Assembly: GCA_017464475.1 (NCBI GenBank)
Contig: JAFTZQ010000005.1
Span: 239,339 to 303,338 of the forward strand
Length of the DNA: 64,000 nt
Origin: Paludibacteraceae bacterium
Lineage (GTDB): Bacteria; Bacteroidota; Bacteroidia; Bacteroidales; Paludibacteraceae
Reading direction: 5' to 3'
Shown here: piece by piece, positions 14,428 through 52,649 of the stretch
Numbering within the stretch: position 1 is the first letter of the stretch
Layout: every line of letters begins with the position of its first letter
The notes under the pieces: model-generated
What the model was told of the DNA's origin: nothing
The model's input: the letters and a program-made list of their open reading frames with translations, nothing else
Databases searched by the model: none
Position numbers and translations under genes: made by a program

Positions 14428-14602
14428 CTGCTTGACTTTCGGGTTGCCGACGCGATCATCACGGGATCATCTCCCGACCAACACGCGATCACCTTAGGAC
14501 GACATCGGCTCCACAATAGCCCCACAACGGCATAATCTCATCCTTCCGTTGTGTAAAAATTGACGGAAATAGTGTAAAAATCGTTCGCGCGCCCTCCCGC
14601 GC
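14428..14602. other. Gene-free spacer between core block and accessory island
   Basis: Mixed-composition spacer. It holds a short CGGGA/TCCCG hairpin near 14462-14476 and a few GCGATCA repeats. I see no open frame with coding character and no tRNA. Confidence 0.5.
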
Positions 14603-14859: not shown

Positions 14860-15282
14860 ATGCGTTACTTATTAGATACCCATATTTTCCTTTACATCGC
14901 TATTGATAAAGAATATATTGATAGCGACGTAATGTCTATTATCACGGATTATGATAATACACTCTGCGTGAGTGCTGAGACTTTGCGTGAATTAGTAGTT
15001 GGGTATAATAATCGCAGTTTTTCTACAAAAAGATGGAAAACTTGTGAGGAATTGATAAATGCGATAGCAGAAACTTACAATATAGAGGTGCTTCCATTGA
15101 CGGAACAAGTGATGCAGACTTATTCCCGTCTGCGGAGGAATGAAGCGCAGGGGCACAAAGATCCGTCGGATCATGTAATCATATCTCATGCTATCACGTT
15201 GGGTTTGCCGTTGATCAGCAGTGATACGCGTTTCCCATATTACGAGAAACAAGGTTTGAAACTGATTTTCAATCATAAATAA
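14860..15282 (+). CDS. PIN-domain ribonuclease toxin (VapC-like)
   Basis: 140-aa PIN-domain protein, probably a VapC-type endoribonuclease that cuts tRNA or rRNA when released from its antitoxin. It begins MRYLLDTHIFLY (first acidic residue D6), continues SAETLRELV (conserved Glu), and carries DPSDHVIISHA (about residues 107-117) and LISSDTRF (about 122-129), which together give the acidic Mg-binding set. It has the usual length for the family. Start ATG at 14860, 3 nt after the antitoxin stop. The exact RNA target cannot be inferred. Confidence 0.88.
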   Translation: MRYLLDTHIFLYIAIDKEYIDSDVMSIITDYDNTLCVSAETLRELVVGYNNRSFSTKRWKTCEELINAIAETYNIEVLPLTEQVMQTYSRLRRNEAQGHKDPSDHVIISHAITLGLPLISSDTRFPYYEKQGLKLIFNHK

Positions 15283-15318
15283 CTAATCTTTTTATTTGAC
15301 AATTAAATCTCAAGTATT
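15283..15318 (+). promoter_or_regulatory. Leader shared with surface-protein genes
   Basis: The stretch before the ATG at 15319 (TAATCTTTTTATTTGACAA, then TTAAATCTCAAGTATT) resembles the leader of the 1544-aa surface protein at 27386 and, in its first part, the leader at 15806-15841. All are followed by ATGARAMAC starts. Function unknown; see findings. Confidence 0.5.
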
Positions 15319-15453
15319 ATGAGAAACGAAAAACCAATAGATATGAGAAGAATAGAAGAATTGGAGAGTAAGGAACTCTTGACCCCGGAGGAGTTCAAAG
15401 AACTTGGTCACTATCGTATGTCCCAAATGATTCATCCTCAAGCAGCATGTTAA
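15319..15453 (+). CDS. Small antitoxin-like protein (partner of RelE/ParE-like toxin)
   Basis: 44-aa acidic protein: MRNEKPIDMRRIEELESKEL, then LTPEEFKELGHYRMSQMIHPQ. Not recognised as a named family. Its stop overlaps the start of the next gene (ATGTTAA at 15447-15453), a translational-coupling layout typical of antitoxin-toxin pairs. The upstream leader and the first three residues (MRN) match the start of the giant surface gene at 15842, so this pair may have captured that gene's leader. Confidence 0.6.
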   Translation: MRNEKPIDMRRIEELESKELLTPEEFKELGHYRMSQMIHPQAAC

Positions 15454-15779
15454 GATACACTCAACAAGCAAATGAGGATTTGTCCTGCATATTGGCAGGA
15501 CTTGTATCTTTTCGAATAGGCGATGCGCTCGATCCTTCTCTGACGGTTGAGCATGCAAGTCAGATTTTTGATGACATCGCTGAACATATTGATTCAATAG
15601 AAGGTCTGACATACCATCGTGCAAATACATTTGGCGGACTGGAAAGTTATGGAAAATACGTATATACATATACGCGGAATAGAACTAATTGGTACGCATT
15701 CTATGACAAGTGTAACGATGGAAGTTTTGTAGTAAATCGCATCACGAATAACTGGAATATTCTTTTGCCTCGTTTATGA
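15447..15779 (+). CDS. RelE/ParE-superfamily toxin-like protein
   Basis: 110-aa protein with features of the RelE/ParE fold: an N-terminal helical region (MLRYTQQANEDLSCILAGL), a central GLESYGKYVYTYTRNRTNWYAFYDK segment, and a C-terminal strand with VNRITNNW, a pattern seen in Bacteroidetes RelE/ParE-family toxins. It would act on ribosome-bound mRNA (RelE) or gyrase (ParE); the sequence does not decide which. It overlaps its upstream partner by 7 nt. Second TA-like pair within 1.1 kb. Confidence 0.7.
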   Translation: MLRYTQQANEDLSCILAGLVSFRIGDALDPSLTVEHASQIFDDIAEHIDSIEGLTYHRANTFGGLESYGKYVYTYTRNRTNWYAFYDKCNDGSFVVNRITNNWNILLPRL

Positions 15780-15805
15780 GTCAAGACAAAAATAATCAAC
15801 ATAAA

Positions 15806-15841
15806 TATCTAATCTTTTTGTTTAACTAAAATCTAATTAGT
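15806..15841 (+). promoter_or_regulatory. Leader of the 2265-aa surface protein
   Basis: TAATCTTTTTGTTTAACTAA, then AATCTAATTAGT before the ATG. GTTTAACTAAAAT is also found in the leader of the minus-strand surface gene (27323). No TAnnTTTG box is visible in the 62-base gap. Confidence 0.45.
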
Positions 15842-18800
15842 ATGAGAAACAATTTTCTAAATTCGGTAGCGTACGACCCGATCGCGGAGCCATGCGCCGC
15901 GAAGACGCCCCAAAACACAGGGGGGGGTACTTCGCGAACTAAAAACCGTTCGGTGACGGTCAATCTGTCGTCAGGCACAACGACGAACCGAGAGATGACC
16001 GAGAGAAGACCGAGAGAAGACCGAGAGACCTTCGTGCTTGGTTTCCTAAAATATGCTGCCTGCATGCTGATGCTCCTCTTTGTGGGCGTCGGAAATGTGT
16101 GGGGAGAAGAAGTCAAGCTCGTATCTGTTGGAAATGAGGCTGTTTCTATGATTGCAGGCGAAGGAACTGCTCCTAATTTCTTTAATGATAAGACTTATAA
16201 AAGTGGGGATGAGTCATATTCTGTTACAATCTCGCTGAATACATTTACTACGGCTCAAGGTTCAGAGTATAAACCCGATGGGACGACTAAGTATAAAGAT
16301 TACTACTACAATGTGAATAGCACGTGTGATATGTCTGGAACCCCTGCCAATTATATCAAGGTTTCGGCAACAAACTGCAAAATTTCTAAGATAGTAGTAC
16401 GTGGTGCGTGCGCTAGTTCTACCATTCAGTCTCTTCCTGCGGTAGGATTTGTGAATGGCTTACCGGAAACTACAACTATAGGTAGTAATGCAGGACGTAG
16501 AGCTGATGTAATTATCTCTGATCAAACGTGCTCTTATACAGCGAATAAACGCTTTGATCAGGGAAGTGCTGCTACTTATATATTCTCAACTAATGTATCA
16601 GAAGTTTATTTCTCTAAACAATTTAAGAAAGTAGCACTGCCATCTGCATCTGCTTGGTCTTCAGTCCCCTCATCTAGCCAAACGTATTGTGTATTTGGTA
16701 TGGATGTGTATGTTGTCCCTGAAGGATCCAAAGAGTCAGCTATTAACTACACTAATTTGAAAGGAGCAGATAACTCCGCCAACCCGACTAAATATACAGA
16801 GGGAACTGGTATCGCTTCATTTACAGATTTGGCTGACGTAACTGGTTATTCGTTCGCAGGTTGGGATCCTGCTTCTATTAGTGCGTCGGCTACTGGAGAA
16901 CAAACAATCAACGCAACATGGACGGCTAATACTCACTCGTTAACATGGAATATTCCGGTTGATGCAACTATTACTAATCCGGAGACATATACTCACGGAA
17001 CGGTGGCTTATGGAACAGCGATTGTTGCTCCGACGCTTTCTCGTGCCGGTTATGATTTCTTAGGATGGGATGCTACTCCTGAGGCAACGATGCCGGATAA
17101 CGATTTGGAATATACAGCTCAGTGGCAAGCAGAGGCTCAGAAATTTGATATTACTTATTCTAATCTTAAGGGATCGGATGTATCTGCTTATCCGACAAAG
17201 TACTCCAAAGGAATTGGTATTGCTTCTTTTGCTCCGTTGGCAGATGTAGAGGGATTCCATTTTACAGGTTGGAGTCCGGCTTCTATTTCTACAACCGATG
17301 AAGGCGATAAAGAGATTGAGGCTCAATGGATACCGACCTATTCGCTTACTTATAATCTGAATGGTGGTACTGGTACCCTACCGACAGAAACGGCTAAGTA
17401 TGCGACACAGGAGTTTGCTTTGGCAGCACAAGGCGACATTGTTGCTCCGGCCAACAAGCAATTCCTTGGATGGAAAGACCAAGATGGCAATAAATATGCC
17501 GCAGAAGCGAACTTTACAATGCCGGGTAAGGCTGTTACCTTGACAGCTTACTGGGCAGCAAAGGTAGAGGATGTGATTTATTCTTGGGAAAGCCCGGAAG
17601 GAACTCCGATAGAAACAGGTGGTACGGCTAAATTCTACACGGGTGACACAGATAACTCCAGTGCGACCGAGAATAATCGTGTAAATTATGCAAATAATCC
17701 AATCAATGGTGATGGTGCAACTCTGTATTATACTCTCCGTCTGGACAAGGATGTTGATTATTCTGCTGAGCACGTTCGTATCTTTTTGAATAGCGCATTA
17801 AAGGAAGGCGATAAGATTGCGATAACGGCTTATTATACCAAAAATCAAGACAAGACCATAGCTCCAAAGATAGCAAATGGCTCCAATGAGGTAGTTTGCT
17901 CCACAGATAATTTGGTGAACTTGTATAATGGAGGTACTCCTGTCACCCAAACCAAGACACTCAATGATAAAGCAGAGGGAGCGACAACGCTTAAGTTGAC
18001 TCGTAGTGCAACATCTACTACGGCATGGATTACCAAGTTGCAAATCGTTCGTGAGTCTTACGTAGATGAAGATCTTTTGTTGACCGTAAAGTTCAACTAT
18101 AATGATGGAGTTACTCCGAATGCTACAATCCAAGTAGCTACCGGTCAAGCAGTTGCACAACCCGCCAACCCGACCTGGGCACATCATCGTTTCAACGAAT
18201 GGCAGTTGGCTGGCTCTGCATATGATTTCTCGTCTGCTGTAACAGGCAATATTACCTTGGTTGCAGACTGGACTCAACTCTACACGATTACTTATGCAAA
18301 GGGCGACGAGGGTGCAACAGGTGATGCTCCTGTACAGGAAGACAAGGCTCAAGGAGAGACGTTTACCGTTGCCGCTAATCCCTTTACTGTAGCAGGTAAA
18401 GATTTCGTTAAATGGAATGACGGTACTAATGACTACGCTCCGGGTGCGACTTACACCGTTGGAACAGATAACGTAGTCCTTACCGCACAATGGAAAGCAG
18501 CGGCTGACAAATATACGGTTATCTTCAAAGATGGTACGACTGAATTAGGTACTAAGTTGTTTGATGTTACTACTAATCCGTCTGATGCTGATATTGACAA
18601 AACAAAAGCATTGTGCACTTTCGCTGCATGGCAGAAAGAGGGCGTGGACATAGCTCTGGATGATGCCTTCTGGGCTACTGTAGCAAAAGATGCAGAGATT
18701 ACTCTTACTGCTCGTTGGGCAAAGGCTTTTGCTCTTGATATTGACTTCGAGGCATTCATTGATGCAGAAGGAACAAGTGGCGACTGGGGCGCAGAATTAG

Positions 18801-21800
18801 CAGCAAAGAACTATGCTATTTCCAGCACCACTAATGTAACGCTTGACGCTCCGGATAGCAAACCTGCTGACAAAGGCTTGAAGATTAAGAATTCAGGTTC
18901 ATACATCTCTTTCAATGTAAATGCCGGCAAACTGGTATTGCTTAAGGCTGGTGTGCTGAGTGGTGCTGAAGCATCTGTTGATGGCGGAACAAATTATACT
19001 GCTTTGAGTGGTGCTTCAGGTTCTACAGGTGCCTCTGTTGTTACTCCGCTTTACAATGCCGATGAGGCTGAGTATAGAATCCGGACTACCACAGGTTCTT
19101 ATAATATCATCCAAGCCATCACCATTACCAATCCGTTTACCGTTTCGTTCGAGGCTCACGGAGATGCAGACCCTGCTTCTCTGAACGGTACTCCTTCTGT
19201 AACGCTTCCGAGTGCGACGAATGGAACAGAGAGTTTCCTCGGATGGTTTACAGAGGCAACAGGTGGCGAGAAAATCGGTAATGCAGGTGATTCATATACT
19301 CCGACTGCTGACATCACCCTTCACGCTCAATGGGAGGCTGTTTCGACAGACGCACGCCTGAGTGCTATCACGTTCTCCAGTGATGCAGGTACATTGGCTC
19401 CTGCCTTTGATCCGGAGGTAACGGAATACACCTATACAATGCCTTACGGAACGGCATCTATCCCGACTATTACCGGCGCAACGGCAGTGAATGCAAATGC
19501 ACAAACTCCGATTATTGGTGAAGCTGTGGCTGCTTGGGGGGAGGCTCAAACGATTAAGGGTGTAGCTCAGAGTGGCGACAAGAAGACCTACACAATCACG
19601 ATGAAGGTCGCTCCGAAAGATGGCGTTTGCCTCGTTTGGGCAGATATACCGTCAAATAGTACCATCACGTATAATGCGACTAAATCTAAGTATTTTGCAG
19701 AGTCAGATGTTACGCTTGCAACTACTGTCAATGGTAAGGACGGGTCAGCTCCTTCGGGCGTTAAATTCCAAGGCAGCACTTACATTCATATTGGCGGTGC
19801 ATTCCTTGCCGGTGATGTTTTAGCATTAGATGTAACATATGCAGCGAATGGTACAAATCAAACGATGTATGTTTATGACGCACAAGCAGGTGCTGAAGAA
19901 AACATCATTGGTACGTTAGCCGGAGGAAAAACTCCTGCAGGTCTAAATGAGGTGACTCTGATGAAAGATGCTGCTGATTTGTGGCTTGTTCGTGGTGGTC
20001 AAAATAGTGATTGGAATCCTCACGTAGATTATGTAGCAGTTTATCGTCCGATGAATCCGGTGCTGAAGAAAGTAACGGTAAATGGTGTTGAGGGAACTCC
20101 TGTGGCAAATGTTATCTCGATAGAGGTTCCTGCTTCTACCACTCAGCCGCAATTAGAAGCTATCGCATATGATTGGGTATCCAACAATGATGAATGGACA
20201 GCTGCTCATACTCCTGCAGCAGCTAACACTTGGGAGTTTGGTGTGGCTAACACTGTCACTCTGACAGACAAAGACGGTGACGCGAGTGTTTACACGATTA
20301 CCGTAACCAAGGCTGAGGCTTCGCACGACGCAACGCTGAGTGCATTGAGCGTAGAGGGTTACAGCCTGAGTCCGGCATTTGATCCGGCAGTGCTGACCTA
20401 CAATGTAGAGTTGGCAAAGGGTACCGTAATAGCTGATCTGCTGGCTGTAAGCTACACGCTGAACCATGTAGGTGCAACGGCTGTCAAGACCGACGCAACT
20501 GCTCTGCCGGGCGCAACGACTATCGTTGTAACCGCAGAGGATGGTTTGGAAGCAAACAAGAAGACTTACACCATCAACTTCACCGTAAGCACGAAGGACA
20601 AAGTAGTTATCTTCGATGGCTCTACGGATGAAGCATTGAGAGACGTTCCTGCTGCTTTAGCAACTGAAGGTTTTGCTTGGGTCAAGAACTCGGACGATGC
20701 AGGTAAGTTTAAATATATCGAGTATACTTCTGTTTCCGGCTACACGCACGCGATATATACAAACGGTAGCTCGAATGCCAACAGAAATATAGCAGTAACT
20801 ATTCCTTCGAAATATGAGGCTCAATTCGAAATTGCTCAAGCAAGTAACTCTGATGCTACCCGCCATGCTTACGTCGGTGCAGCCAATAACACTGCTTATG
20901 CCGATGCATTGTTCTCAGTAGAGAGCGCAAGCAAGACGGATGGTCAAAAAGCAACGAGCGAAGCTCTCGCAGGAGGTAAGACCTATTACATCCATAGCGA
21001 TAATAGTATTAACATTCTCGAAATCAACCTCTATATCGACCGCGTATCGGAGGCTCCGGCTATTAGTGCTCAACCGGCTGCTTTGGCAGTCTGCGATGCA
21101 GCAACGAACACCAACGCCCTGTCAGTAACGGCAAGCGTAGAGGCAGGTACGTTGAGCTATCAGTGGTACAAGGTAGTAGAGGAAGGCGACGACGTGGCTG
21201 TTGGTACCAATAGTAATGAGTTCGTTCCGACTGCTCTGGGCGACTACTATGTAGTTGTCACCAACACTGAAGGTTCTTATAAGCCGAGCAGCACGAAGTC
21301 TGAAATCGCTACCGTAAGCCTGAAAGCACAGACGGAGATCACCGGCTTTGAGAATGCTGCCGCTCCTCTGAATACAGAGAAGACGCTGTCTGTAACCGCT
21401 GCAGGTACGGGTACACTGACTTACAAGTGGCAGGCTTGCACCGAGGCAGGTGTAGTAACGGACGAGAATGTTCTGAGCAGCGCAGCTGCTTATGACGTTA
21501 CCATTACCGAGGAACCGCAGTATTACCTTGTAACAGTAGAAGGTGAGTGTGGAAGCGCTACCCAAGTTCTCTTTGCAAAGAAATGGGCAGACCTTGAGTT
21601 GGTTGACGTAGATGGTTCTATGACTTGGAACTTTGCTGCAAGCAATACCGGTATAACCGAAGATGTGACAGTTCCGTCTACGATGGTTCTTGCTAATGCA
21701 GGTCAAGGTGCTATGCCTAATACTGACAACTTCCGCTCGGATATGTTGAAGGCTATTGTAGGTTCAACGGGAACGGCTGTACGCCAGAGTAGTACCGATG

Positions 21801-22639
21801 GCGGTTGCTATCAAGGTACAGGCATTATGTTCCATACAACCGTTCCGGGTATCGTAACTGTTACATACCGTGGCACAGGAAATAATGCAGACGTAACTCT
21901 GACCGTAGGATCGAAGACATTTGACACTTATCAAGGCGCATGGAAAACGTGCGACAAGGTATTCGTTCCTGCCGGCGATGTAGAAATCTCTTCTGTAGGT
22001 ACAATGCGTATCCAGAAGATCGTCTTCAATGCTGAGCCGGATTACACCCGCAATGTAACGGAAGGTCGCTTTGGAACTATCTGCTTGCCGAACGGCGGTG
22101 TGATGGTTGGTGCTGAGTTGTTCGAGATCGCTTACTACGGCGAGAGCACGCAGAAGGTATTCTTGGATAACATCATCAATGGTGAGATGGAAGCCGGCCG
22201 TCCGTATATCTTCCTGCCGAAGGAAGGTACAACGCAGCTGGCAGTCTTCTACACGGATGAGGCTAATGCTTCGCAAGGAAGCCACAACGGTCTGATCGGT
22301 TTCATCGGTGATGCCGAAGATGCGTACTTCAATATTCCTGCCGGCGAGGGTAACTACATCCTCCAGAACAACTACTACCGCGAAGTTCCAGCAGGCGCTT
22401 GGGCTCGTATCAAGAGCAATCGCGCATACATCAAGTTGAGTGCAATCAATCCTCATGAGTCTGCTTTGGCTCCGGGTCGTCGTCGTATCTCGATGGGTGT
22501 TCAGAGTGAGCAAGTAGCTACGGGAATGGAGAACACCGGCTTCGAGAGCGAGGCTCCGCGTAAGGTGCTGATCAACGGCGAGCTCTTCATCATCCGTGGT
22601 GAGAAGATGTACGACGCTAAGGGACAGCTGGTAAAATAA
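15842..22639 (+). CDS. Giant secreted repeat protein (2265 aa), probably phase-variable
   Basis: Predicted exported surface protein. The first about 64 residues are an unusual polar extension; the hydrophobic signal core (FLKYAACMLMLLFVGVGNVWG, cut here into motif ends FLKYAACML and GVGNVWG) spans about 68-88. InlB/Listeria-Bacteroides-type repeats (pattern 'FAGWDP...INATW', 'FLGWDATPE...YTAQW') run from about 298 to 962 and again 1102-1167. Cadherin-like segments (DARLSAI, HDATLSAL) follow near 1170 and 1495, and Ig-like segments (LSYQWYK, LTYKWQA) near 1740-1900. The C-terminal about 205 residues, ending in NGELFIIRGEKMYDAKGQLVK-type tail, resemble the end of the 1544-aa protein. Codons 27-29 lie in a G8 tract and codons 49-63 in four 11-bp repeats, so slippage would switch the frame. 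Ligand unknown. Adhesion is an inference. Confidence 0.8.
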   Translation: MRNNFLNSVAYDPIAEPCAAKTPQNTGGGTSRTKNRSVTVNLSSGTTTNREMTERRPREDRETFVLGFLKYAACMLMLLFVGVGNVWGEEVKLVSVGNEAVSMIAGEGTAPNFFNDKTYKSGDESYSVTISLNTFTTAQGSEYKPDGTTKYKDYYYNVNSTCDMSGTPANYIKVSATNCKISKIVVRGACASSTIQSLPAVGFVNGLPETTTIGSNAGRRADVIISDQTCSYTANKRFDQGSAATYIFSTNVSEVYFSKQFKKVALPSASAWSSVPSSSQTYCVFGMDVYVVPEGSKESAINYTNLKGADNSANPTKYTEGTGIASFTDLADVTGYSFAGWDPASISASATGEQTINATWTANTHSLTWNIPVDATITNPETYTHGTVAYGTAIVAPTLSRAGYDFLGWDATPEATMPDNDLEYTAQWQAEAQKFDITYSNLKGSDVSAYPTKYSKGIGIASFAPLADVEGFHFTGWSPASISTTDEGDKEIEAQWIPTYSLTYNLNGGTGTLPTETAKYATQEFALAAQGDIVAPANKQFLGWKDQDGNKYAAEANFTMPGKAVTLTAYWAAKVEDVIYSWESPEGTPIETGGTAKFYTGDTDNSSATENNRVNYANNPINGDGATLYYTLRLDKDVDYSAEHVRIFLNSALKEGDKIAITAYYTKNQDKTIAPKIANGSNEVVCSTDNLVNLYNGGTPVTQTKTLNDKAEGATTLKLTRSATSTTAWITKLQIVRESYVDEDLLLTVKFNYNDGVTPNATIQVATGQAVAQPANPTWAHHRFNEWQLAGSAYDFSSAVTGNITLVADWTQLYTITYAKGDEGATGDAPVQEDKAQGETFTVAANPFTVAGKDFVKWNDGTNDYAPGATYTVGTDNVVLTAQWKAAADKYTVIFKDGTTELGTKLFDVTTNPSDADIDKTKALCTFAAWQKEGVDIALDDAFWATVAKDAEITLTARWAKAFALDIDFEAFIDAEGTSGDWGAELAAKNYAISSTTNVTLDAPDSKPADKGLKIKNSGSYISFNVNAGKLVLLKAGVLSGAEASVDGGTNYTALSGASGSTGASVVTPLYNADEAEYRIRTTTGSYNIIQAITITNPFTVSFEAHGDADPASLNGTPSVTLPSATNGTESFLGWFTEATGGEKIGNAGDSYTPTADITLHAQWEAVSTDARLSAITFSSDAGTLAPAFDPEVTEYTYTMPYGTASIPTITGATAVNANAQTPIIGEAVAAWGEAQTIKGVAQSGDKKTYTITMKVAPKDGVCLVWADIPSNSTITYNATKSKYFAESDVTLATTVNGKDGSAPSGVKFQGSTYIHIGGAFLAGDVLALDVTYAANGTNQTMYVYDAQAGAEENIIGTLAGGKTPAGLNEVTLMKDAADLWLVRGGQNSDWNPHVDYVAVYRPMNPVLKKVTVNGVEGTPVANVISIEVPASTTQPQLEAIAYDWVSNNDEWTAAHTPAAANTWEFGVANTVTLTDKDGDASVYTITVTKAEASHDATLSALSVEGYSLSPAFDPAVLTYNVELAKGTVIADLLAVSYTLNHVGATAVKTDATALPGATTIVVTAEDGLEANKKTYTINFTVSTKDKVVIFDGSTDEALRDVPAALATEGFAWVKNSDDAGKFKYIEYTSVSGYTHAIYTNGSSNANRNIAVTIPSKYEAQFEIAQASNSDATRHAYVGAANNTAYADALFSVESASKTDGQKATSEALAGGKTYYIHSDNSINILEINLYIDRVSEAPAISAQPAALAVCDAATNTNALSVTASVEAGTLSYQWYKVVEEGDDVAVGTNSNEFVPTALGDYYVVVTNTEGSYKPSSTKSEIATVSLKAQTEITGFENAAAPLNTEKTLSVTAAGTGTLTYKWQACTEAGVVTDENVLSSAAAYDVTITEEPQYYLVTVEGECGSATQVLFAKKWADLELVDVDGSMTWNFAASNTGITEDVTVPSTMVLANAGQGAMPNTDNFRSDMLKAIVGSTGTAVRQSSTDGGCYQGTGIMFHTTVPGIVTVTYRGTGNNADVTLTVGSKTFDTYQGAWKTCDKVFVPAGDVEISSVGTMRIQKIVFNAEPDYTRNVTEGRFGTICLPNGGVMVGAELFEIAYYGESTQKVFLDNIINGEMEAGRPYIFLPKEGTTQLAVFYTDEANASQGSHNGLIGFIGDAEDAYFNIPAGEGNYILQNNYYREVPAGAWARIKSNRAYIKLSAINPHESALAPGRRRISMGVQSEQVATGMENTGFESEAPRKVLINGELFIIRGEKMYDAKGQLVK
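15920..15927 (+). repeat. G8 homopolymer in the coding region before the signal peptide
   Basis: Eight consecutive G, read as part of Thr-Gly-Gly-Gly-Thr (codons 26-30). Change by one base would shift the frame before the signal peptide. Confidence 0.85.
15987..16030 (+). repeat. Four tandem 11-bp repeats before the signal peptide
   Basis: ACCGAGAGATG, ACCGAGAGAAG, ACCGAGAGAAG, ACCGAGAGACC in direct succession. Unit length is not a multiple of three, so gain or loss of a unit changes the frame. The first unit contains an in-frame ATG (15995). Confidence 0.9.
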
Positions 22640-24325: not shown

Positions 24326-24976
24326 ATGAACGAAAAAGATAAGATATTACCAGTAGGGCAACAGGCTCTGGCGGAGATACAACGGCATATTTTGCTGCTG
24401 CGAGGAAAACAGGTGCTTCTGGATTTCCAACTTGCGGCGATGTACGGAGTGGAGACTAAAGTATTAAATCAAGCAGTAAAACGAAATATTAATCGTTTTC
24501 CGGAGGATTTTATGTTTAGACTTACCCGTCAAGAAGTCGCATATATGAGGTCACAAATTGTGACCACATACACGCAAGCCATAGAAAATCAACAAGATGG
24601 TGATTTCGGAGAAGCGGCGTTGCATGGTAAACGTAGAGCGGACGCATTACCTTACGCATTTACGGAGCAGGGAGTGGCAATGTTGTCCAGCGTGTTGAGA
24701 AGCGAAACAGCGGTGCAGGTGAATATAGCGATAATGCGCGCTTTTGTGATGGCTCGTCAGATAGTGGTCGAAACACGTGAGAATGCATTAGCCATAGAGG
24801 AACTGAGGGCAAGAATGAAGATGCTTGAAGATGCTTTGGAAAACAACTTGGAGGCAGTGAATGACTTGAGTGAAGATATGCGGCAAGAACTGGACAATAT
24901 ATATAATGCTATCGGAGCATTAAGCATAACGCCCAAAGAGCCCAAAACTCCTCGCAACCCGATAGGTTTCAATTGA
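24326..24976 (+). CDS. ORF6N-domain DNA-binding protein
   Basis: 216-aa protein. The N-terminal ORF6N domain (about residues 14-100) shows [47 protein letters not shown] (in consecutive segments), a DNA-binding module related to phage antirepressors. [15 protein letters not shown] follows near 110, then a coiled-coil stretch (about 145-195; [17 protein letters not shown]). Such genes are widespread in Bacteroidetes accessory regions; the regulon is unknown. It stands just upstream of the invertase gene, though separately promoted. Confidence 0.85.
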
Positions 24977-25047: not shown

Positions 25048-25659
25048 ATGAGGTACGGTTATATTCGCGTTAGTAGCGACAAGCAGACCGTTGAGAATCA
25101 GCGGTATGAGATCAAACAGTTTTGTCTCAAAGAAGAGATGAGTATTGATGGCTGGATCGAGGAGACAGTCTCCGGCGCCAAGCCTTATTCCAAACGCCGG
25201 CTGGGCAAGTTACTGAAGAACGTGCGCGAGGGCGATGTGATCATCTGCAGCGAGCTAAGCCGCTTGGGCAGGAGTCTGTTCATGGTGATGGAGATTCTGA
25301 GCCTCTGCATGGAGCGCGGCTGCTCGGTATGGACGGTCAAAGACGGCTACCGGCTGGGGGACGACATCCAGTCCAAAGTGCTGGCATTCGCTTTCGGGCT
25401 GTCGGCGGAAATCGAGCGCAAGCTGATCCGCCAGAGGACCTGCGAAGCGTTGGCAAGGCTCAAGGCGGAAGGCAAGATTTTAGGGCGTCCGAAAGGAAGT
25501 AAAAAACGCAAAGAGGTGCATCCTCTGTACCGCCGCGAAGGGTACATCCGGCGGCTGTTGGAGGAGGGCTGTTCGCTACGCGAGATAAGTCGGCGGCTCC
25601 AATGCAACCGAAACACGCTCAAACGCTATATGGATGCATACATGTCGCAACAGACGTAG
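25048..25659 (+). CDS. Mpi-type serine DNA invertase
   Basis: 203-aa small serine recombinase like Bacteroides fragilis Mpi, which inverts promoters of surface-structure genes. The catalytic domain begins MRYGYIRVSSDKQTVENQ with the nucleophilic Ser in RVSS (about residue 10); the CSELSRLGRS block carries the conserved Arg residues (about 68-76). The E helix with SAEIERKLIRQRT follows, and the C-terminal helix-turn-helix (about 160-200) includes GCSLREISRRLQCNRNTLKRYM. Full length for the Hin/Mpi group. Possible substrates in this window are the inverted repeats at the start codons of two surface genes, but no known Mpi site is proved. Confidence 0.88.
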   Translation: MRYGYIRVSSDKQTVENQRYEIKQFCLKEEMSIDGWIEETVSGAKPYSKRRLGKLLKNVREGDVIICSELSRLGRSLFMVMEILSLCMERGCSVWTVKDGYRLGDDIQSKVLAFAFGLSAEIERKLIRQRTCEALARLKAEGKILGRPKGSKKRKEVHPLYRREGYIRRLLEEGCSLREISRRLQCNRNTLKRYMDAYMSQQT

Positions 25660-26687: not shown

Positions 26688-27323
26688 TTAATCGGTCGAT
26701 TGTTGTGAGCCAGGGTCTGGGTCACTAGAGGAAGAATAATTTACTGTAATGGAGTATACTCGCACGGAAGCAGAGCCTGCTAATGTAATACTTTCAATAT
26801 CATCATTTATCGTAAATGTGTAATTGTCAGGATTTTCAGCCGTAGTCGTTTGAGCAGTTTTTCCATTTACCGCTATAGTTGCACTTGAGTTTTTTGAACC
26901 ACCTGTGTTGTCGCAATTGACAACTATAGAAGTAGCATACACACTACCACTTTCTGATAGAGCGATTGATAAACTAGAAGCATTACCGGATTTCCCTAAT
27001 CTAATACATGATTTTGTATCCCCATAATAGATATTACCACTATTAACGCTAAACGGTGAAGATTGTACATAACTACGGGAATCTGATGCGATAACAGTAC
27101 TTGCTTGCGTAGTAGCGGTTAAAGGTGTCGCAGAATTAGCATTGTTAGCAAACGTAATAGTGTAATTCTCTCCCCAAACCTGTCCAACTCCGGCAAGCAA
27201 AAAAAGCAACATAAATGTAATGTGTTTTAGCTGTTGCCGCCGACGGTCAGCCGACGGTGAGCCGACGGTCGCGTACGACGCAAGACCGACGCTGAGCCCA
27301 AATTGAGTTAATAAGTGTTTCAT
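26688..27323 (-). CDS. Short secreted protein resembling the N-terminus of a giant surface protein
   Basis: 211-aa predicted exported protein. I start it at the ATG at 27323 (MKHLLTQFGLS), which matches the start of the divergent gene at 27386; an upstream in-frame start at 27380 would lie in the shared promoter gap. The signal core ends LLFLLAGVGQVWG (about residues 34-50), nearly the same as in the 2265-aa protein. One beta-rich domain follows and ends VYSITVNYSSSSDPDPGSQQSTD, where the 1544-aa protein would continue into Ig-like domains, so it looks truncated. Three 11-bp repeats lie before the signal core. It may be a remnant, a silent cassette, or a short secreted protein. Confidence 0.65.
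   Translation of the reverse strand: MKHLLTQFGLSVGLASYATVGSPSADRRRQQLKHITFMLLFLLAGVGQVWGENYTITFANNANSATPLTATTQASTVIASDSRSYVQSSPFSVNSGNIYYGDTKSCIRLGKSGNASSLSIALSESGSVYATSIVVNCDNTGGSKNSSATIAVNGKTAQTTTAENPDNYTFTINDDIESITLAGSASVRVYSITVNYSSSSDPDPGSQQSTD
27239..27271 (-). repeat. Three tandem 11-bp repeats before the signal peptide
   Basis: GCCGACGGTCA, GCCGACGGTGA, GCCGACGGTCG (plus-strand reading). They sit in codons about 18-28 of the minus-strand gene; unit changes shift the frame. Confidence 0.9.
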
Positions 27324-27383: not shown

Positions 27384-27403
27384 TTATGAAACACTTTTTA
27401 ACT
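27384..27403. repeat. Inverted repeat, right copy, over start codon of plus-strand gene
   Basis: TTATGAAACACTTTTTAACT, the inverted partner of 27306-27325; includes the ATG at 27386. Confidence 0.85.
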
Positions 27404-30400
27404 AATTTCTTGCGAATGGGCAGCACCGTTTCTACCCCCCCCATTCGTAGCGCAATGCGTAGCATCCTATTGGTTTTAGGACTCCTTCTCGGCAGCTTGA
27501 GTATGTGGGGAAAGACAATAAGTTGGAATTGTTCCCAATTGGGAAGCTCTACAATAACTGGTCCTATTTCAGGAGACATTGACGCTAACATCTCTTTTAC
27601 ATCTTCAAAAGGAGGAGCGGACAATGCGACAGCGTACAATAAGGACGGAACGATTAGACTTTACTACAAAAATACGGGAAATGGTAGTGATCTTACGCTT
27701 ACGCCAGATGAGGGAGTTACTATAACAGAAGTAGTACTCACTGCGAAAAGTAGTTATGCTGTGGATTTTTCGTATAGTATAGATGGAGGGGCAGCCACCG
27801 CTGGAAGTTGGAGTGACTTATCTGCCACTATTTCTGATATATCAGCTACGTCGTCTTTTAAAATTGTAAATAAGTCAACAACCGCTCAATTACGCCTGAC
27901 AAATATTACCATAACATATTCAACCGGCGGAGGTGACATAATTGTTAAGACTCTTAAGAGCATCGCAGTCGAAGGAATGACAACTTCATATGAGCAAAAC
28001 GACGCATTCTCGTTTGACGGAACATGTAAGGCTACATACAGCGTTACTGTAAATAATGTGCCGCAAGAAGATGAATTGAAGACGGTTACACCGACTTCTG
28101 TTTCTACTCCTGATATGACCGAAGCTGGCAATAAGACGATTACGGTTACTTATGTGGAAGGCGAAGTGGAAAAATCTACTACGTATAATATTACCGTTGT
28201 CGCTGCGGGAGGTGATAAGCTGACACGTGAGACGACCGGCGTATCTGGCACTAACTATACCGGGTGGAGTGGAAAATCTGGTGCATCGGGTGCCGTTTAT
28301 TCCGGTAATTCAGCAGGAAGTAACGAGTCTATCCAGTTGCGCAGTAACAATAATAACTCAGGTGTCGTTTCTACCACTTCGGGCGGATTGATTAGGAAAG
28401 TAAAAGTGGCTTGGAATAGCAATACGGCTTCTGGACGTACTCTTAATGTGTATGGTTCAAATACTGCATATACTGCCGCTTCTGACTTGTATGGAGATAA
28501 CAAAGGAACTCTGTTAGGAACTATCGTTAATGGAACATCCACTCAATTGGAAATTACTGATGACTATGAGTATGTAGGTGTACGTTCTAATGATGGTGCG
28601 ATGTATCTTACTTCCATTACTTTTGTATGGGAGCCAGGTAAACAGTTGGAGTCGATTGCGGTTAAGAACAATCCTAATAAAGTAAGCTATAATATCGGTG
28701 ATGCGTTTGATGCTGCCGGTTTGGTTATTACTGCTACTTACGATGACTCTTCTAAGGAAGACATCGCTTACGCAGGCAATGAAGACAAGTTCTCGTTCAC
28801 GGGCTTCAGTAGTGCAGCAGCTGCGGCTGCACAAGCAATTACCGTTACTTACGGCGGCGAGAGCACAACGTTCAATGTCGAGATTAAGGACGTTACCTTG
28901 CAGACTGTAACAGTCAGAGGCACGCCAGCCACAACTTCTTATACAGCAGGTGACACGTTTGACCCGACAGATCTGACGGTAATGGGACATTATTCCGACA
29001 ACTCGGACGCTCCTATTACTTCAGGCATTACATGGTCGTATCCCGATGCAAATAATACTCTGGTGAAAGATCAGACCTCTATCCGCGTGGTGGCTACGGT
29101 GGATGAAATTGCCAGTGAGGCATATACCGTTAGTGGGTTGAGCGTTACAGCCGCTCCGTTAGTAGCAAGTTGGGTGGCTTCGGAGCATTATAACGAAACA
29201 ACAGATATGACGGCAGAAACGGTAGCCTTTGGTCCGAGCAACAATTTCTCTATTGTATTCGGCGCGGGAACTAATACTCAAAATGCACCTAAATACTATA
29301 CCTCAGGAGAGGCTGTCCGTGCATACGGAGGCAATACATTTGCGCTTTCTTCGAATGACTATAAGTTTAAAGAGATTGTGATTGGCTTCGGAAGTAGTGA
29401 TGGAAGTAATGCTATTTCTGCTAATGTAGGAACATATGAAGCCGGAACATGGACGGGAAATTCGAAAGAAGTTGTCTTTACTATAGGTGGTACAAGCGGA
29501 CAGCGTCGTATTGCATCTATCACGGTAACATACGAAGCGGCATTGCCTTCTGTAGAGACTCCGACATTCTCTGTTGCCGAGGGCACGTATTTTGAGACTC
29601 AGAATGTAACTATTACAACTGAAACCGCAGGTGCTACCATCTATTATACAACGGATGGTGCAGAGCCTACTACTGGATCGAGCGTTTATAGTGATCCTAT
29701 CGCCGTTTCGACGGGTATGACCATCAAGGCTATTGCCGTGAAAGACGGTATGGACAACAGCGCAGTAGCTTCGGCTACGTATGCTATGGGACCTGTTTTT
29801 ACCAGCTTTGAAGCCTTGGTAGCTGCAGATATAACAAGTGGTACGAAGGTAAAGGTCTCATTCGAGAAAGTCGCCATCAAGAAGATTGACACGAACAAAA
29901 AGTACGTAACCTTCGATATTCAGAAAGAGGAGAAAGATATTGAGATTTATTTCAATACTGAAGCCTTGCCTGATACATGGGTAGTCGGTGGCACACTTTC
30001 GGGTACAATTCTTGCTCCGTGGAAACGATTCGCACAATCTAACAATCTTGTTTGCTGGGAGTTGGCTCCGGAGAGTGGTTGGCAATGGACGAACTTGACT
30101 TATAACAGCCCGATAACAAAGGAGATTGACCATGTGACGGTAACTGGTACTGCAACCAAGACGGCATACGTGGACGGCGAAGTGTTTGATCCCGCAGGTC
30201 TGACGGTTACACTGTACTATACGGATGATACTAACGAGGAGGTTACAGAAGGCATTGTATGGGCTCCGACCACCGCTTTGACCGAGGGAACAACTTCGGT
30301 GAACGTAACGGCTAAAGTAAACGAAGTGACCAGTGCTGCTTATCCTGTATCTATTACCGTCAGCGAGATTCCGACCAAGACGATTGCAGAGTTCATTGAC

Positions 30401-32020
30401 GCAGGTGGAGGTCGCTGCTACCTTGTAGGTGTGGTTGGTACAATTGCAAACACCACATACGGAAACTTTACATTGACCGATGCAAGCGGAAGTATCTATG
30501 TATATGGTTGCTTAAATTCAGAGGGAGAGCCGAAGAAATTTGCTGCGTTGGATGTGGAAGAAGGTGACCGCATCAAAGTAATAGCCGGGCAATATATGAA
30601 TCATGCTACGCAAGGTCATGAAGCGGTTGACGTAAGGTTTGTAGAAGAATTGGCTCCGGAAGTAGTTGCTGTAACAGGTGTTACTGTTGCTCCGACTGAG
30701 ACCACTATTAAAGTAGGCAAGACTGTTACGCTGGCGGCTACAATTGAACCTGCTTTGGCAACGAACACCAACGTAACGTGGGAATCCGATGCAACCGGAG
30801 TGGCGACCGTAGATGAGAGCGGCGTTGTATCTGCTGTTGCAAAGGGAACAGCAATCATTACAGTTACCACGGAAGATGGCGGATTTACCGCAACATGTGT
30901 AGTAACCGTTATTGACGCATCCGCTCGTGCAGAGGGCAATGCGGTATTCCAGAAAGTAACGGCAACTGAAGACATTACTAATGGCAAATACTTGATCGTT
31001 TATGAGGATGGTAGTGTTGCCTTTGATGGTGCATTAGAAACCCTAGATGCAGTAGAAAATACAATTAGTGTAACTATTGATAATGGTATTATCGTTGCTC
31101 CGGCAGACGCTGCCTTTACGATTGATGCAACAGCGGGGACGTTGAAATCTTACAGCGGAAAATATATAGGGCAAAATAGCAATGATAATGGCTTAGCTAC
31201 TTCTGAAGAGGCTATTACAAATACATTATCAATTGGCGGAGGTGAAAACGCAGATATTGTGTCGAGTTTAGCACACCTACGTTATAATAGTGCAAGCAAC
31301 CAACTGCGCTTCCGTTATTATAAATCCGCTTCGTATAGCGGTCAGAAAGCGGTTCAACTCTACAAAATGTTAGAGCCTACTGAATTACGTACTAGTCTCT
31401 TTGAAGGCAAGTGGGGAACGATTTGTCCAGATAAGAAAGTTATGCTTCCTACCGGTGCTTCGTTCTACACGCTGACCTATCTGCAGATGGCAGGTGAAAT
31501 GCCGTACAAACTCTTCTTCGATGAGATAGAGACTGATTATCTGGAGGCTGGTAAACCGTATCTGTTCATCGCTGAGGGCGAAGTTATCAAGGGTGTTAAG
31601 GTTGGCGCCGCAGTTCCAGAGGCTGCTAACTACAATGGCTTCTACGGAAACGTAGGAGGTAGCACAATACAGATTAGTACAAGCCAGAACGCATACAAAG
31701 CAGACGAAGACGTAGTGAACTATTATGGTCTAACCAACAATACATTCACTCTGTTGGCTAACGGTACGAATGTGGCTCACGAGCGCGCTGTAGTTCAGAT
31801 TAAGAATGGTCAGTTGGATTGCGCTAATCCTCCTCATTCTTTGCCTGCACCTCGCGCTGGCGCACGTCGAGTAGTAGCAGGAAACAATGCTCCTGCTGTA
31901 GCAACGGGCATGGATGAGCTGAATGCTTCCGAAACTCCGGTTAAGGTAATGATTGACGGTCAGTTGTTCATCCTCCGCGGCGAGAAGATGTATAACGCTA
32001 ACGGACAGTTGGTAAAGTAA
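27386..32020 (+). CDS. Large secreted multidomain surface protein (1544 aa), probably phase-variable
   Basis: Predicted exported protein starting MKHFLTNFLRM. The hydrophobic signal core ends LLLGSLSMWG (about residues 29-44). The N-terminal beta domain is followed by Ig-like group 3 units (KTLKSIAVEG near 188, KQLESIAVKN near 418, TVTVRGTPATTSYTAGD near 507), a chitobiase-C-type domain (YYTTDGAEPTTGS, about 722-795), another group 3 unit near 915, an OB-like segment (VGVVGTIANTTYGNFTLTDASG, in parts, about 995-1080) and a group 2 Ig domain (about 1093-1170). The last about 210 residues match the end of the 2265-aa protein in layout and finish NGQLVK. A C8 tract in codons 17-19 lies before the signal core. 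Binding target unknown. Confidence 0.8.
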   Translation: MKHFLTNFLRMGSTVSTPPIRSAMRSILLVLGLLLGSLSMWGKTISWNCSQLGSSTITGPISGDIDANISFTSSKGGADNATAYNKDGTIRLYYKNTGNGSDLTLTPDEGVTITEVVLTAKSSYAVDFSYSIDGGAATAGSWSDLSATISDISATSSFKIVNKSTTAQLRLTNITITYSTGGGDIIVKTLKSIAVEGMTTSYEQNDAFSFDGTCKATYSVTVNNVPQEDELKTVTPTSVSTPDMTEAGNKTITVTYVEGEVEKSTTYNITVVAAGGDKLTRETTGVSGTNYTGWSGKSGASGAVYSGNSAGSNESIQLRSNNNNSGVVSTTSGGLIRKVKVAWNSNTASGRTLNVYGSNTAYTAASDLYGDNKGTLLGTIVNGTSTQLEITDDYEYVGVRSNDGAMYLTSITFVWEPGKQLESIAVKNNPNKVSYNIGDAFDAAGLVITATYDDSSKEDIAYAGNEDKFSFTGFSSAAAAAAQAITVTYGGESTTFNVEIKDVTLQTVTVRGTPATTSYTAGDTFDPTDLTVMGHYSDNSDAPITSGITWSYPDANNTLVKDQTSIRVVATVDEIASEAYTVSGLSVTAAPLVASWVASEHYNETTDMTAETVAFGPSNNFSIVFGAGTNTQNAPKYYTSGEAVRAYGGNTFALSSNDYKFKEIVIGFGSSDGSNAISANVGTYEAGTWTGNSKEVVFTIGGTSGQRRIASITVTYEAALPSVETPTFSVAEGTYFETQNVTITTETAGATIYYTTDGAEPTTGSSVYSDPIAVSTGMTIKAIAVKDGMDNSAVASATYAMGPVFTSFEALVAADITSGTKVKVSFEKVAIKKIDTNKKYVTFDIQKEEKDIEIYFNTEALPDTWVVGGTLSGTILAPWKRFAQSNNLVCWELAPESGWQWTNLTYNSPITKEIDHVTVTGTATKTAYVDGEVFDPAGLTVTLYYTDDTNEEVTEGIVWAPTTALTEGTTSVNVTAKVNEVTSAAYPVSITVSEIPTKTIAEFIDAGGGRCYLVGVVGTIANTTYGNFTLTDASGSIYVYGCLNSEGEPKKFAALDVEEGDRIKVIAGQYMNHATQGHEAVDVRFVEELAPEVVAVTGVTVAPTETTIKVGKTVTLAATIEPALATNTNVTWESDATGVATVDESGVVSAVAKGTAIITVTTEDGGFTATCVVTVIDASARAEGNAVFQKVTATEDITNGKYLIVYEDGSVAFDGALETLDAVENTISVTIDNGIIVAPADAAFTIDATAGTLKSYSGKYIGQNSNDNGLATSEEAITNTLSIGGGENADIVSSLAHLRYNSASNQLRFRYYKSASYSGQKAVQLYKMLEPTELRTSLFEGKWGTICPDKKVMLPTGASFYTLTYLQMAGEMPYKLFFDEIETDYLEAGKPYLFIAEGEVIKGVKVGAAVPEAANYNGFYGNVGGSTIQISTSQNAYKADEDVVNYYGLTNNTFTLLANGTNVAHERAVVQIKNGQLDCANPPHSLPAPRAGARRVVAGNNAPAVATGMDELNASETPVKVMIDGQLFILRGEKMYNANGQLVK
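27435..27442 (+). repeat. C8 homopolymer before the signal peptide
   Basis: Eight consecutive C, read as Thr-Pro-Pro in codons 17-19. Slippage would frameshift the protein before export. Confidence 0.85.
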
Positions 32021-33829: not shown

Positions 33830-33847
33830 TAAAAATCTATAATAGCA

Positions 33848-33880
33848 AACAACCACGAAACAACCACGACAAAACCACGA
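33848..33880 (+). repeat. Word-repeat cluster after HEPN gene
   Basis: Three copies of AACCACGA with short spacers. One of the spacer word clusters. Confidence 0.6.
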
Positions 33881-51007: not shown

Positions 51008-51062
51008 AAAGGGGGTGATAAGGGGGTGATTAGGGGGTTATTACGGGGTGATTAGGGGGTTA
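51008..51062. repeat. G-run array reaching the dehydrogenase stop codon
   Basis: Five G4-G5 runs in TGATTAGGGGGT-type words. On the minus-strand transcript it is C-rich and starts at the stop codon. Confidence 0.8.
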
Positions 51063-52649
51063 TTCGTATAACACAGCTATGCGACAAGCGGCGTTGATAC
51101 CATCCAAAGCACTGCTCGTTATGCCGCCTGCATAGCCTGCGCCTTCGCCGCAGGGGTATAAACCAGGCGTACTGACCGACTCCATCGTCTCCGGATCGCG
51201 GATGATACGCACAGGGCTGCTGCTACGGCTCTCAACGCCCACGATGACTGCTTCGTTCGTCAGGAAGCCCGGATATTTCTTGTCGAAATCACGAAAACCT
51301 TGTTGCAGCCGTTTGCCTATTCCTGCCGGTAACCACTGATCCAGACGGCTTGGCACGATGCCCGGCAAGTAACTGCATGCCGGCAGATCCTTACTCGCTC
51401 TGCCCTCCACAAAATCCCGCATCCTCTGCGCCGGAGCTGCTGATGGCTGATGGCTGATGGCTGACTGCTCAAAGGCGAGCCGTTCCAGCTCTTCTTGATA
51501 CTCCAGCCCGCGGAGCGGATCGTCCCCCGGTATATCCTCAGGATTGATCTGAACGACCATGCCGCTGTTGGCGTACGGCGAGTTGCGGTGGCTGGCTGAC
51601 ATACCATTCACCACGCACATCCCTTCCGCACTTCCTGCCGGCACGATATGTCCGCCCGGACACATGCAGAACGAATAGACACCTCGTCCGTCCACCTGCG
51701 TCACGAGGCTGTAACTCGCGTTGCCAAGGTATTTGATAACCCCCTCCTTCTCCCCCTCAAGGGGAGTGTTCCTCCCTTGTGGGGAGGTTAGGTGGGGTTT
51801 ACCCAGATGATACATCAGCCTGTTGATCAACTCCTGCGGATGTTCGGCGCGAACGCCCATCGCAAAACCCTTTGTCTCCATCGCTACACCTTCGGCGGCT
51901 AACATCCGGTACGTGTCGTGCGCCGAGTGCCCGATCGCGAGGATAATAGGGAACCGGCTGATGGCTGACGGCTGACCGCTGATAGCTTTGAGGCTTCTCA
52001 CGCAAGTCTCAAAGTGTATCTCCCCTCCGTGCTCCAGAATACACTCCCGCATTCGTTTGATAATCGTCGGCAACTTGTCGCTTCCTATATGTGCGTGCGC
52101 TTCGTAGAGCACCGTGTCCGGCGCACCGAAATAATGGAATATCTCCATCACCCGCTGCATGTTACCCCGTTTCTTGGAGCGGGAGAACAGCTTGCCGTCG
52201 GAGAACGTACCGGCTCCGCCTTCGCCGAAGCAGTAATTAGATTCCGGATTCAGCCCCTCGTTGCGGTTCAGCAAAGCAATATCCTTCTTCCGTTCACTCA
52301 CTTCCTTGCCCCGCTCATAGATAATAGGTTTGATCCCGTGCTCTAACAGGGTCAGCGCAGCAAAAAGGCCCGCCGGACCGGCTCCAATGATGATGGCTTC
52401 GCGTTTTGCTTCATGCACATCTTGGTACACCGGCGGTGTATAGAGTGGGAAACGGTCACCATCCGGGGAATTGTTAATTGTAAATTGTGAATTGTGAATT
52501 GGTATGGGCTTTCCTTCCTCGTCCGCCAATACAGTAAGATGCACTTTCAGCTCTCGCTGTCGTGCATCTACTGAACGCTTTACCACCCGCCATTTCCGGG
52601 CAGCTTCATACGCCTCCTTTGGGGATAATATATACTGTGTCGTTTTCAT
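51060..52649 (-). CDS. FAD-dependent dehydrogenase with word-repeat insertions
   Basis: 529-aa flavoprotein of the NAD(FAD)-utilising dehydrogenase group (COG2509-like). The dinucleotide-binding motif AIIIGAGPAGLFAAL is at about residues 85-100. Conserved Cys/Gly segments include YCFGEGGAGTFSDGKLFSRSKKRG, LAIGHSAHDTYRML and the final PCGEGAGYAGGITSSALDG, which closes the FAD site. Four low-complexity segments interrupt it: HNSQFTINNS (about 52), SGQPSAISRF (about 224), LTSPQGRNTPLEGEKEG (about 285) and EQSAISHQPSAAP (about 395). They remain in frame and use the vocabularies of nearby spacers. Substrate unknown. Confidence 0.85.
   Translation of the reverse strand: MKTTQYILSPKEAYEAARKWRVVKRSVDARQRELKVHLTVLADEEGKPIPIHNSQFTINNSPDGDRFPLYTPPVYQDVHEAKREAIIIGAGPAGLFAALTLLEHGIKPIIYERGKEVSERKKDIALLNRNEGLNPESNYCFGEGGAGTFSDGKLFSRSKKRGNMQRVMEIFHYFGAPDTVLYEAHAHIGSDKLPTIIKRMRECILEHGGEIHFETCVRSLKAISGQPSAISRFPIILAIGHSAHDTYRMLAAEGVAMETKGFAMGVRAEHPQELINRLMYHLGKPHLTSPQGRNTPLEGEKEGVIKYLGNASYSLVTQVDGRGVYSFCMCPGGHIVPAGSAEGMCVVNGMSASHRNSPYANSGMVVQINPEDIPGDDPLRGLEYQEELERLAFEQSAISHQPSAAPAQRMRDFVEGRASKDLPACSYLPGIVPSRLDQWLPAGIGKRLQQGFRDFDKKYPGFLTNEAVIVGVESRSSSPVRIIRDPETMESVSTPGLYPCGEGAGYAGGITSSALDGINAACRIAVLYE
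51436..51470 (-). repeat. GCTGATG word cluster inside dehydrogenase gene (1)
   Basis: GCTGATGGCTGATGGCTGAT-type tandem words. Coded as Gln-Ser-Ala-Ile-Ser-His. Confidence 0.8.
51738..51800 (-). repeat. C/G-rich word cluster inside dehydrogenase gene (2)
   Basis: CCCCCTCAAGGGGAG and GTGGGGAGGTTAGGTGGGG, the same vocabulary as the spacer at 52654-52692. Confidence 0.8.
51956..51986 (-). repeat. GCTGATG word cluster inside dehydrogenase gene (3)
   Basis: GGCTGATGGCTGACGGCTGA and continuing; second copy of this vocabulary in the same gene. Confidence 0.8.
52470..52502 (-). repeat. AATTGT word cluster inside dehydrogenase gene (4)
   Basis: ATTGTTAATTGTAAATTG and variants, coded as Ile-His-Asn-Ser-Gln-Phe. 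Same vocabulary as spacers at 56644 and 56753. Confidence 0.8.

Follow-up and report, generated by a model that had tools for sequence, protein, structure and literature searches.

A G-run in a palindromic frame as a probable phase-variation switch in a genus of Bacteroidales

We found that a short run of G residues between the start codon and the signal peptide of a giant exported protein in a Paludibacteraceae bacterium is enclosed by a small palindrome, and that the same arrangement recurs in many genomes of the genus. Judged from sequence comparisons, the G-run is probably a slippage switch, forming the variable segment of a cassette for phase variation that many members of this Bacteroidales genus carry. 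The window, i.e., the whole stretch of 64,000 nucleotides that was analyzed (G000:C13:239339-303338), belongs to a 1.9-Mb assembly with an estimated completeness of 71%.

Gene 1 of the window is an open reading frame (ORF) encoding a giant exported protein of 2265 aa (15842..22639), which is in frame in this assembly and carries a List_Bact_rpt (Listeria-Bacteroides repeat) annotation; the match of its InlB-type repeats in Pfam was weak and below the cut-off, and a search of NCBIfam gave no match. A G8 tract (15920..15927) starts at codon 27 of the ORF, and an 11-bp array with the consensus ACCGAGAGAAG lies at 15987..16028 (TRF: 3.8 copies, 96% matches, score 77), its first unit differing by one base from the next two. 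Both repeats fall within the first 63 codons, and the hydrophobic segment is located 3' of both of them, in a signal-peptide region at 16043..16120 (profile A1, FLKYAACMLMLLFVGVGNVWGEEVKL) of a kind frequent in the genus; all of these features are on the plus strand. In silico, tracts of G6, G7, G9, G10, and G12 reduced the product to 32, 37, 33, 38, and 34 aa, respectively, and G5 and G11 left the ORF open. The loss or gain of one array unit gave 94 or 72 aa, respectively, and the gain of three units left the frame open. The ORF map, the TRF result, and these predicted lengths confirm the claim of a sequence-only reading that the G8 tract and the 11-bp repeats stand between ATG 15842 and the signal peptide and are frame-shifting. 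No orthologue with the same mature protein was found, and hence no length variant is on record for the tract of gene 1 itself.

The same reading had offered the in-frame ATG within the first 11-bp unit (15995..15997, plus strand) as an alternative start. This ATG is indeed in frame and is a possible but less likely start, which would skip the G8 tract but not the remainder of the array. ATG 15842 is the better candidate for two reasons. The 5' leader running into it (15797..15860, plus strand) resembles leaders ahead of other ATG-started ORFs and recurs just before such ORFs in three of the six matches checked (L003, L035, and L041); two of the other matches lacked an ATG-started ORF, and one had it only farther off. 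Furthermore, in related exported proteins the palindromic element described below begins roughly 7 to 50 codons past an in-frame ATG. Directly upstream of the giant gene, at 14860-15779 of the window, we observed three ORFs in an arrangement resembling a toxin-antitoxin operon: one with a PIN domain (Pfam), one of 44 aa, and one of 110 aa that has no family. The 44-aa ORF recurs in L041, and L370 and L311 have, by reading, a similar C-terminal end beside an element.

The G8 tract of gene 1 lies within a 37-bp palindromic element, GCGAAG-N15-G8-TA-CTTCGC (15899..15935, plus strand), whose G-strand is the coding strand. A second element in the reverse orientation (27413..27447, minus strand) places a C8 run at 27435-27442 of the coding strand of gene 2, which encodes a second giant exported protein (27386..32020, plus strand; 1544 aa; Big_2, Big_3, and CHB_HEX_C_1) that is also in frame in this assembly and whose only NCBIfam match was far below the cut-off. 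In silico, C7 and C9 truncated this product to 30 and 21 aa, respectively, so that in both window genes a homopolymer in the 5' coding region is predicted to cause an early stop when its length changes. The sequence-only reading had remarked on neither the palindrome around the G8 tract nor the C8 run, which occupies the same position in gene 2. Between the two giant genes lies a serine resolvase-family ORF (25048-25659), adjoining an ORF6N-domain ORF (24326-24976; Pfam).

The N-terminal G8 region, in the form GCGAAG...CA-G8-(T)A(A)TTCGC, is common to the window and two relatives (G034 and G079). A signal-peptide profile made from these three loci matched 85 of 121 genus genomes at E values up to 0.1. 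The 30 profile loci fetched yielded 24 readable ORFs, ten of which had a G or C run of at least 8 upstream of the signal peptide; the arms were present in all ten, three of these being the profile's own seeds, and in L082 and L105 the element was in the reverse orientation. A narrow pattern of the element was found in 56 of 178 genus genomes versus 2 genomes for its reversed control, and a generic pattern, CGAAN{0,24}HG7N{1,25}TTCG, gave 255 matches in 111 of the 178 (own genome included) versus 15 matches in 14 genus genomes for the control. In 24 genomes of other families, the generic pattern did not exceed its control (seven matches each), with lengths of 29 to 56 and one match in the range of 35 to 39. 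Among 84,980 named species, a narrower pattern occurred in 92 contigs, of which 33 are titled Paludibacteraceae and 17 Bacteroidales, many from ruminants; the other 42 belong to many phyla and include four further Bacteroidota-like or unplaced titles. Viral contigs gave four pattern matches.

The consensus consists of the inverted arms GCGAA[T/G]...[A/C]TTCGC, whose outer G and C follow to some extent from the pattern searched for, within about 36 bp at near-constant spacing, with a G-run of 7 to 12 floating inside and often an outer T...A flanking the arms. Among the 148 matches listed of the 255 (two redundant ones left out), the total length was 35 to 39 in 123, with 17 to 65 allowed, and the left and right spacers summed to 18 to 22 nt in 84%, versus 15% under a naive uniform expectation; the start of the G-run spanned offsets 5 to 24. 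Such a length would set the arms about three helical turns apart. TA directly followed the G-run in 91 of the 133 listed elements with a total length of 33 to 41. As for an RNA hairpin with C4-G4 pairing, tried as a structure of the window element, it generalized poorly across elements when folding was compared with shuffles.

Four elements are present in the own genome: the two in the window, a third at C34:54058, and a fourth, which has G11, at C13:42085. Three of its six isolated G8 runs lie in the palindromic element near the starts of exported-protein ORFs. In six genomes chosen because they carry the element, there were 36 isolated G8 runs, and 14 of the 27 inspected by reading lie in an element. 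Among isolated G8 loci, ATTCGC was also seen ahead of G8-TA in L301, L280, L296, and L307, and L301 has a complete 37-bp GCGAAT...ATTCGC pair without a G-run just upstream of its G8. Several contigs of genome G066 carry multi-copy hairpins, CCCCCTCGATAAGGGGGGG, possibly another genus-internal repeat. A literature search of titles and abstract openings, mostly without subscription papers, returned no description of a palindromic G-run element, and the family is apparently undescribed.

Pfam scans of selected proteins revealed many surface, polysaccharide, and restriction-modification genes among the carriers, in a tally of carriers only. They include acyltransferases of the Acyl_transf_3 (L128, L147, L314, and L381) and MBOAT (L368 and L357) families, a GNAT protein (L109), glycosyltransferases (L153, L385, and L177), a rhamnosyl transferase (L151), an HsdS protein in which the element follows the Methylase_S stretch (L145), AraC-type helix-turn-helix (HTH) proteins (L313, L319, and L340), and exported proteins. 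Exported proteins, acyltransferases, glycosyltransferases, and HsdS are classes typical of contingency genes. Three metabolic-looking carriers, i.e., a PS decarboxylase (L157), an HpcH/HpaI protein (L159), and a TPP enzyme (L318), may be chance pattern matches, and no Pfam family matched L110, L124, or L148. The G11 element of the own genome (L340; G000:C13:42085-42123) closely precedes the start codon of a gene for an AraC-type HTH protein, and loci with related starts in other species (L300, L313, L319, L322, L348, and L349) have G8 to G10 there; a regulator may therefore be switched too.

Comparison of related loci revealed that the length of the tract varies between species among the other carriers of the element. 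We found that 60 of 131 non-redundant elements fall into 22 clusters of related flanks, and in 19 of these clusters the G-number is not uniform. Since the loci compared come from different species and, for the most part, from consensus sequences of metagenome-assembled genomes (MAGs), some of the single-base differences may be assembly errors. The flanks of L311 (G7) and L370 (G9) are nearly identical, and their alignment, about 280 columns long, has its sole gap at the tract. Clear length changes were likewise observed between L368 (G8) and L369 (G7), L355 (G9) and L356/L324 (G8), L123 (G7) and L176 (G8), L138 (C9) and L164 (C8), L333 (G8) and L360/L361 (G9), and L322 (G9) and L348 (G8). In L165, L166/L179, L373, L376, and L156, the G-number was altered by substitution at constant total length. 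The three clusters with a single G-number are L115/L133 (G8), L158/L162 (G8), and L163/L178, the last pair differing by an extra A ahead of the G-run and not within it.

Several of these differences coincide with the loss of a reading frame. L368 is an open MBOAT acyltransferase gene, whereas in its close relative L369 the frame ends right behind the tract; the two are related at the DNA level, and no Pfam family was matched by the pieces of L369. Similarly, L164 is in frame and L138 out of frame, and L178 is in frame whereas the frame of L163 ends at the tract. A frame break also coincides with the tract in L357 and L387, the downstream piece matching MBOAT in the former and no family in the latter. 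In L327 and L378, the ATPgrasp_ST match starts at profile position 62 right after the tract and the upstream ORF is in another frame; in the split genes L327, L378, and L369, the piece ahead of the tract had no Pfam match. In L049 (G079), the frame of an ATG 11 codons upstream closes after 25 codons in all.

Automatic classification of the 131 elements assigned 52 to in-frame 5' coding positions (43 with a hydrophobic stretch), 5 to out-of-frame positions, 3 to ORFs without an ATG, 6 to split genes, 9 to internal in-frame positions, 17 to 3' ends, and 39 to noncoding positions. Some labels are doubtful: the split ATP-grasp gene L378 was labeled in-frame; L141, L167, L349, and L386 are ambiguous, L167 having a second in-frame ATG beside the element; L124 was labeled a 3' end though its frame differs from that of its relatives; L340 was labeled by an antisense ORF; and L121, one of the six split cases, has both halves at the element and may be two genes, so that no weight is placed on it. 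G8 was present in 42 of the 52 in-frame 5' coding elements versus 14 of the 39 noncoding ones (Fisher p = 2e-5, with loci that are not independent), and the total length modulo 3 was 2 in 41 of 52 versus 10 of 39, respectively; among noncoding elements, the G-number varies from 7 to 12. In a further tally, 31 of 35 were in frame, and we place no weight on the binomial p value, which assumes a rough one-third null and non-independent loci. A bias toward G8 and toward one length class modulo 3 that is confined to the coding class is the signature expected of an unstable tract under frame selection. Since the G-number is tied to the frame only in the 5' coding copies, a role of the tract in expression is indicated.

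Replication slippage in the G-run would alter its length by one or two bases. In gene 1, where the cassette follows the start codon of a giant surface protein and precedes its signal peptide, G8 is predicted to keep the 2265-aa frame open and G7 or G9 to end translation within 40 codons. We infer that slippage produces the length changes, that they occur often and reversibly within a population, and that they switch surface exposure. As far as sequence comparison between species can tell, slipped-strand phase variation by the G-tract is well supported: the earlier proposal of slippage-type control gains strong support where the G-tract is concerned, given the differences in G-number, the out-of-frame relatives, and the predominance of in-frame lengths in 5' coding copies only, and the data speak neither for nor against the 11-bp array, which that proposal had also included.

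Against a frame switch stand the 39 noncoding elements, which cannot have frame switching as their role. A different function of the palindrome deserves consideration. It might primarily serve for protein binding or recombination, or be what a small mobile unit has left behind, with the G-run as a fixed part whose length changes are incidental; we regard this as possible, if rather unlikely. Such a function accords with the retention of arms and spacing whether a copy is coding or noncoding and whichever way it is oriented, with the abrupt end of similarity at the element edge seen by eye in L163 versus L158 and L138 versus L164, and with the weakly similar pair L105/L165 (129 bp at 72%), in which the element has opposite orientations. 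Arm pairs without a long G-run and with a total length of 36 to 40 also seem over-represented (28 of 70 among the matches listed), a tally that is inflated by orthologues and on which no claim rests. However, the spacer sequence differs between unrelated loci, unlike that of a transposable unit, and the G-number follows the frame in the 5' coding copies only. The element might instead act at the RNA level, as a hairpin in the mRNA leader or early coding region that affects translation or stability. Folding is good for the window element (z -3.7), shuffling the spacers makes G-strand RNAs slightly less stable (mean z -0.6 for the native ones), and L115 and L133 seem, by reading, to sit in a 5' leader; yet the mRNA carries the C-strand in 21 of the 52 in-frame 5' coding elements, whose folds hardly exceed those of shuffles (mean z -0.25), and an Rfam search of eight loci gave no match at E values up to 1, which makes an RNA hairpin improbable. 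Even less probable is the absence of any switching, in which case the repeats would be stable parts of an ordinary long, degenerate N-terminal leader. The open 2265-aa frame of this assembly and the long N-terminal extensions without a G-tract elsewhere in the genus (e.g., L083, L085, and L087) would suit such a leader, whereas the differing G-numbers of related loci and the existence of out-of-frame copies would not.

The other repeat of gene 1 could also be the main switch, with G8 as a secondary one, since the frame closes with one 11-bp unit more or less. Arrays of other 11-bp units precede signal peptides in several relatives, as seen by eye, and one such array in L163 is missing from its relative L178. 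Nevertheless, the unit of gene 1 is dispersed. A double unit with up to two mismatches gave 18 matches in the own genome (13 forward and 5 reverse) versus none for the reversed pattern, and these collapse to ten places, the window array included. Six of the other places were read and are mostly intergenic; one of them coincides with the 3' end of an ORF for an ABC transporter, and another immediately precedes the start of a further exported protein. Array-type matches occurred in at least 16 of 36 same-genus genomes and, among the matches listed, in none of 24 other-family genomes, where at most nine candidates were scored per genome and the counts are thus lower bounds. Because the unit recurs in the own genome and in the genus, it is a dispersed genus repeat that is also present in this gene. 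Moreover, no orthologous length variant of the array was found. We therefore consider the array very unlikely to be the main switch; it belongs to a dispersed repeat family of its own and is probably secondary, adding at most some frameshifts to those of the G-run. Other 11-bp tandem arrays of unrelated sequence are located in the window at 27239-27270, 14450-14491, 33847-33880, and 51010-51064, and GCCGACGGTCA-like units were noted ahead of signal peptides in the relatives L079, L085, and L163.

Returning to the G-run as the probable switch, the arms are the new part of the cassette. They could be bound by a protein, promote slippage through a structure that they form, or be the trace of a recombination junction. 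More speculatively, the palindromic frame of fixed length might attract a dedicated factor or take up a particular DNA structure, either of which would generate or preserve the G-run and localize its mutation, so that the element would be a programmed hypermutation cassette rather than a site of passive slippage. We put this forward as a tentative and, at present, unlikely reading; a cassette of this kind could be placed at the 5' end of a coding region as well as in the interior of a gene, in its leader, or at its end. The frame around the tract raises the question of whether localized hypermutation can be addressed by a DNA element. If the switch operates as proposed, a gut Bacteroidales genus would possess a set of genes switchable by slippage, in an order known mostly for inversion, and the short sequence signature would allow such genes to be found in metagenomes.

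Known systems share some of these traits. REP/BIME and MITE-like repeats are dispersed short palindromes occurring in both orientations. The present element is likewise a dispersed palindrome, whereas its copies have no conserved interior: unrelated loci differ in their spacers, and only the arms, the spacing, and the G-run are held in common. Phase variation in Bacteroidales is known mostly from DNA inversion. Invertible promoters and genes of this order also yield variable expression of surface genes, and the present element, too, is found in both orientations; however, a segment flips there, whereas here the length of a homopolymer changes, the arms are only about 5 to 7 bp, and opposite orientations were seen in one weakly similar pair of loci (L105/L165) among 131 elements. 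Such invertible promoters and genes are mentioned in PMC11868660. In an acetyltransferase-related gene of Bacteroides fragilis 638R, an extra C in a run of four Cs causes a frameshift, for which the authors suggested a slippage mechanism (PMC3090145). This case likewise involves a single-base change of a run in an acetyltransferase gene of a polysaccharide locus, but it concerns a short run at one locus, and the passage on it mentions no palindromic frame. The poly-G and poly-C contingency loci of Campylobacter, Neisseria, and Helicobacter are similar: genes for surface structures and polysaccharides have G or C runs within or outside their coding sequence, and changes in run length shift the frame. 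To our knowledge, no inverted-repeat frame surrounds the G-runs of these three genera, and we know of no other contingency locus with a near-constant palindromic frame around its tract. Slipped-strand loci of the three genera are treated in, e.g., PMC6321876 and PMC8355987. The tract described here, in a comparison made from sequence between species, differs from these loci in being enclosed by an inverted-repeat frame whose length is nearly constant.
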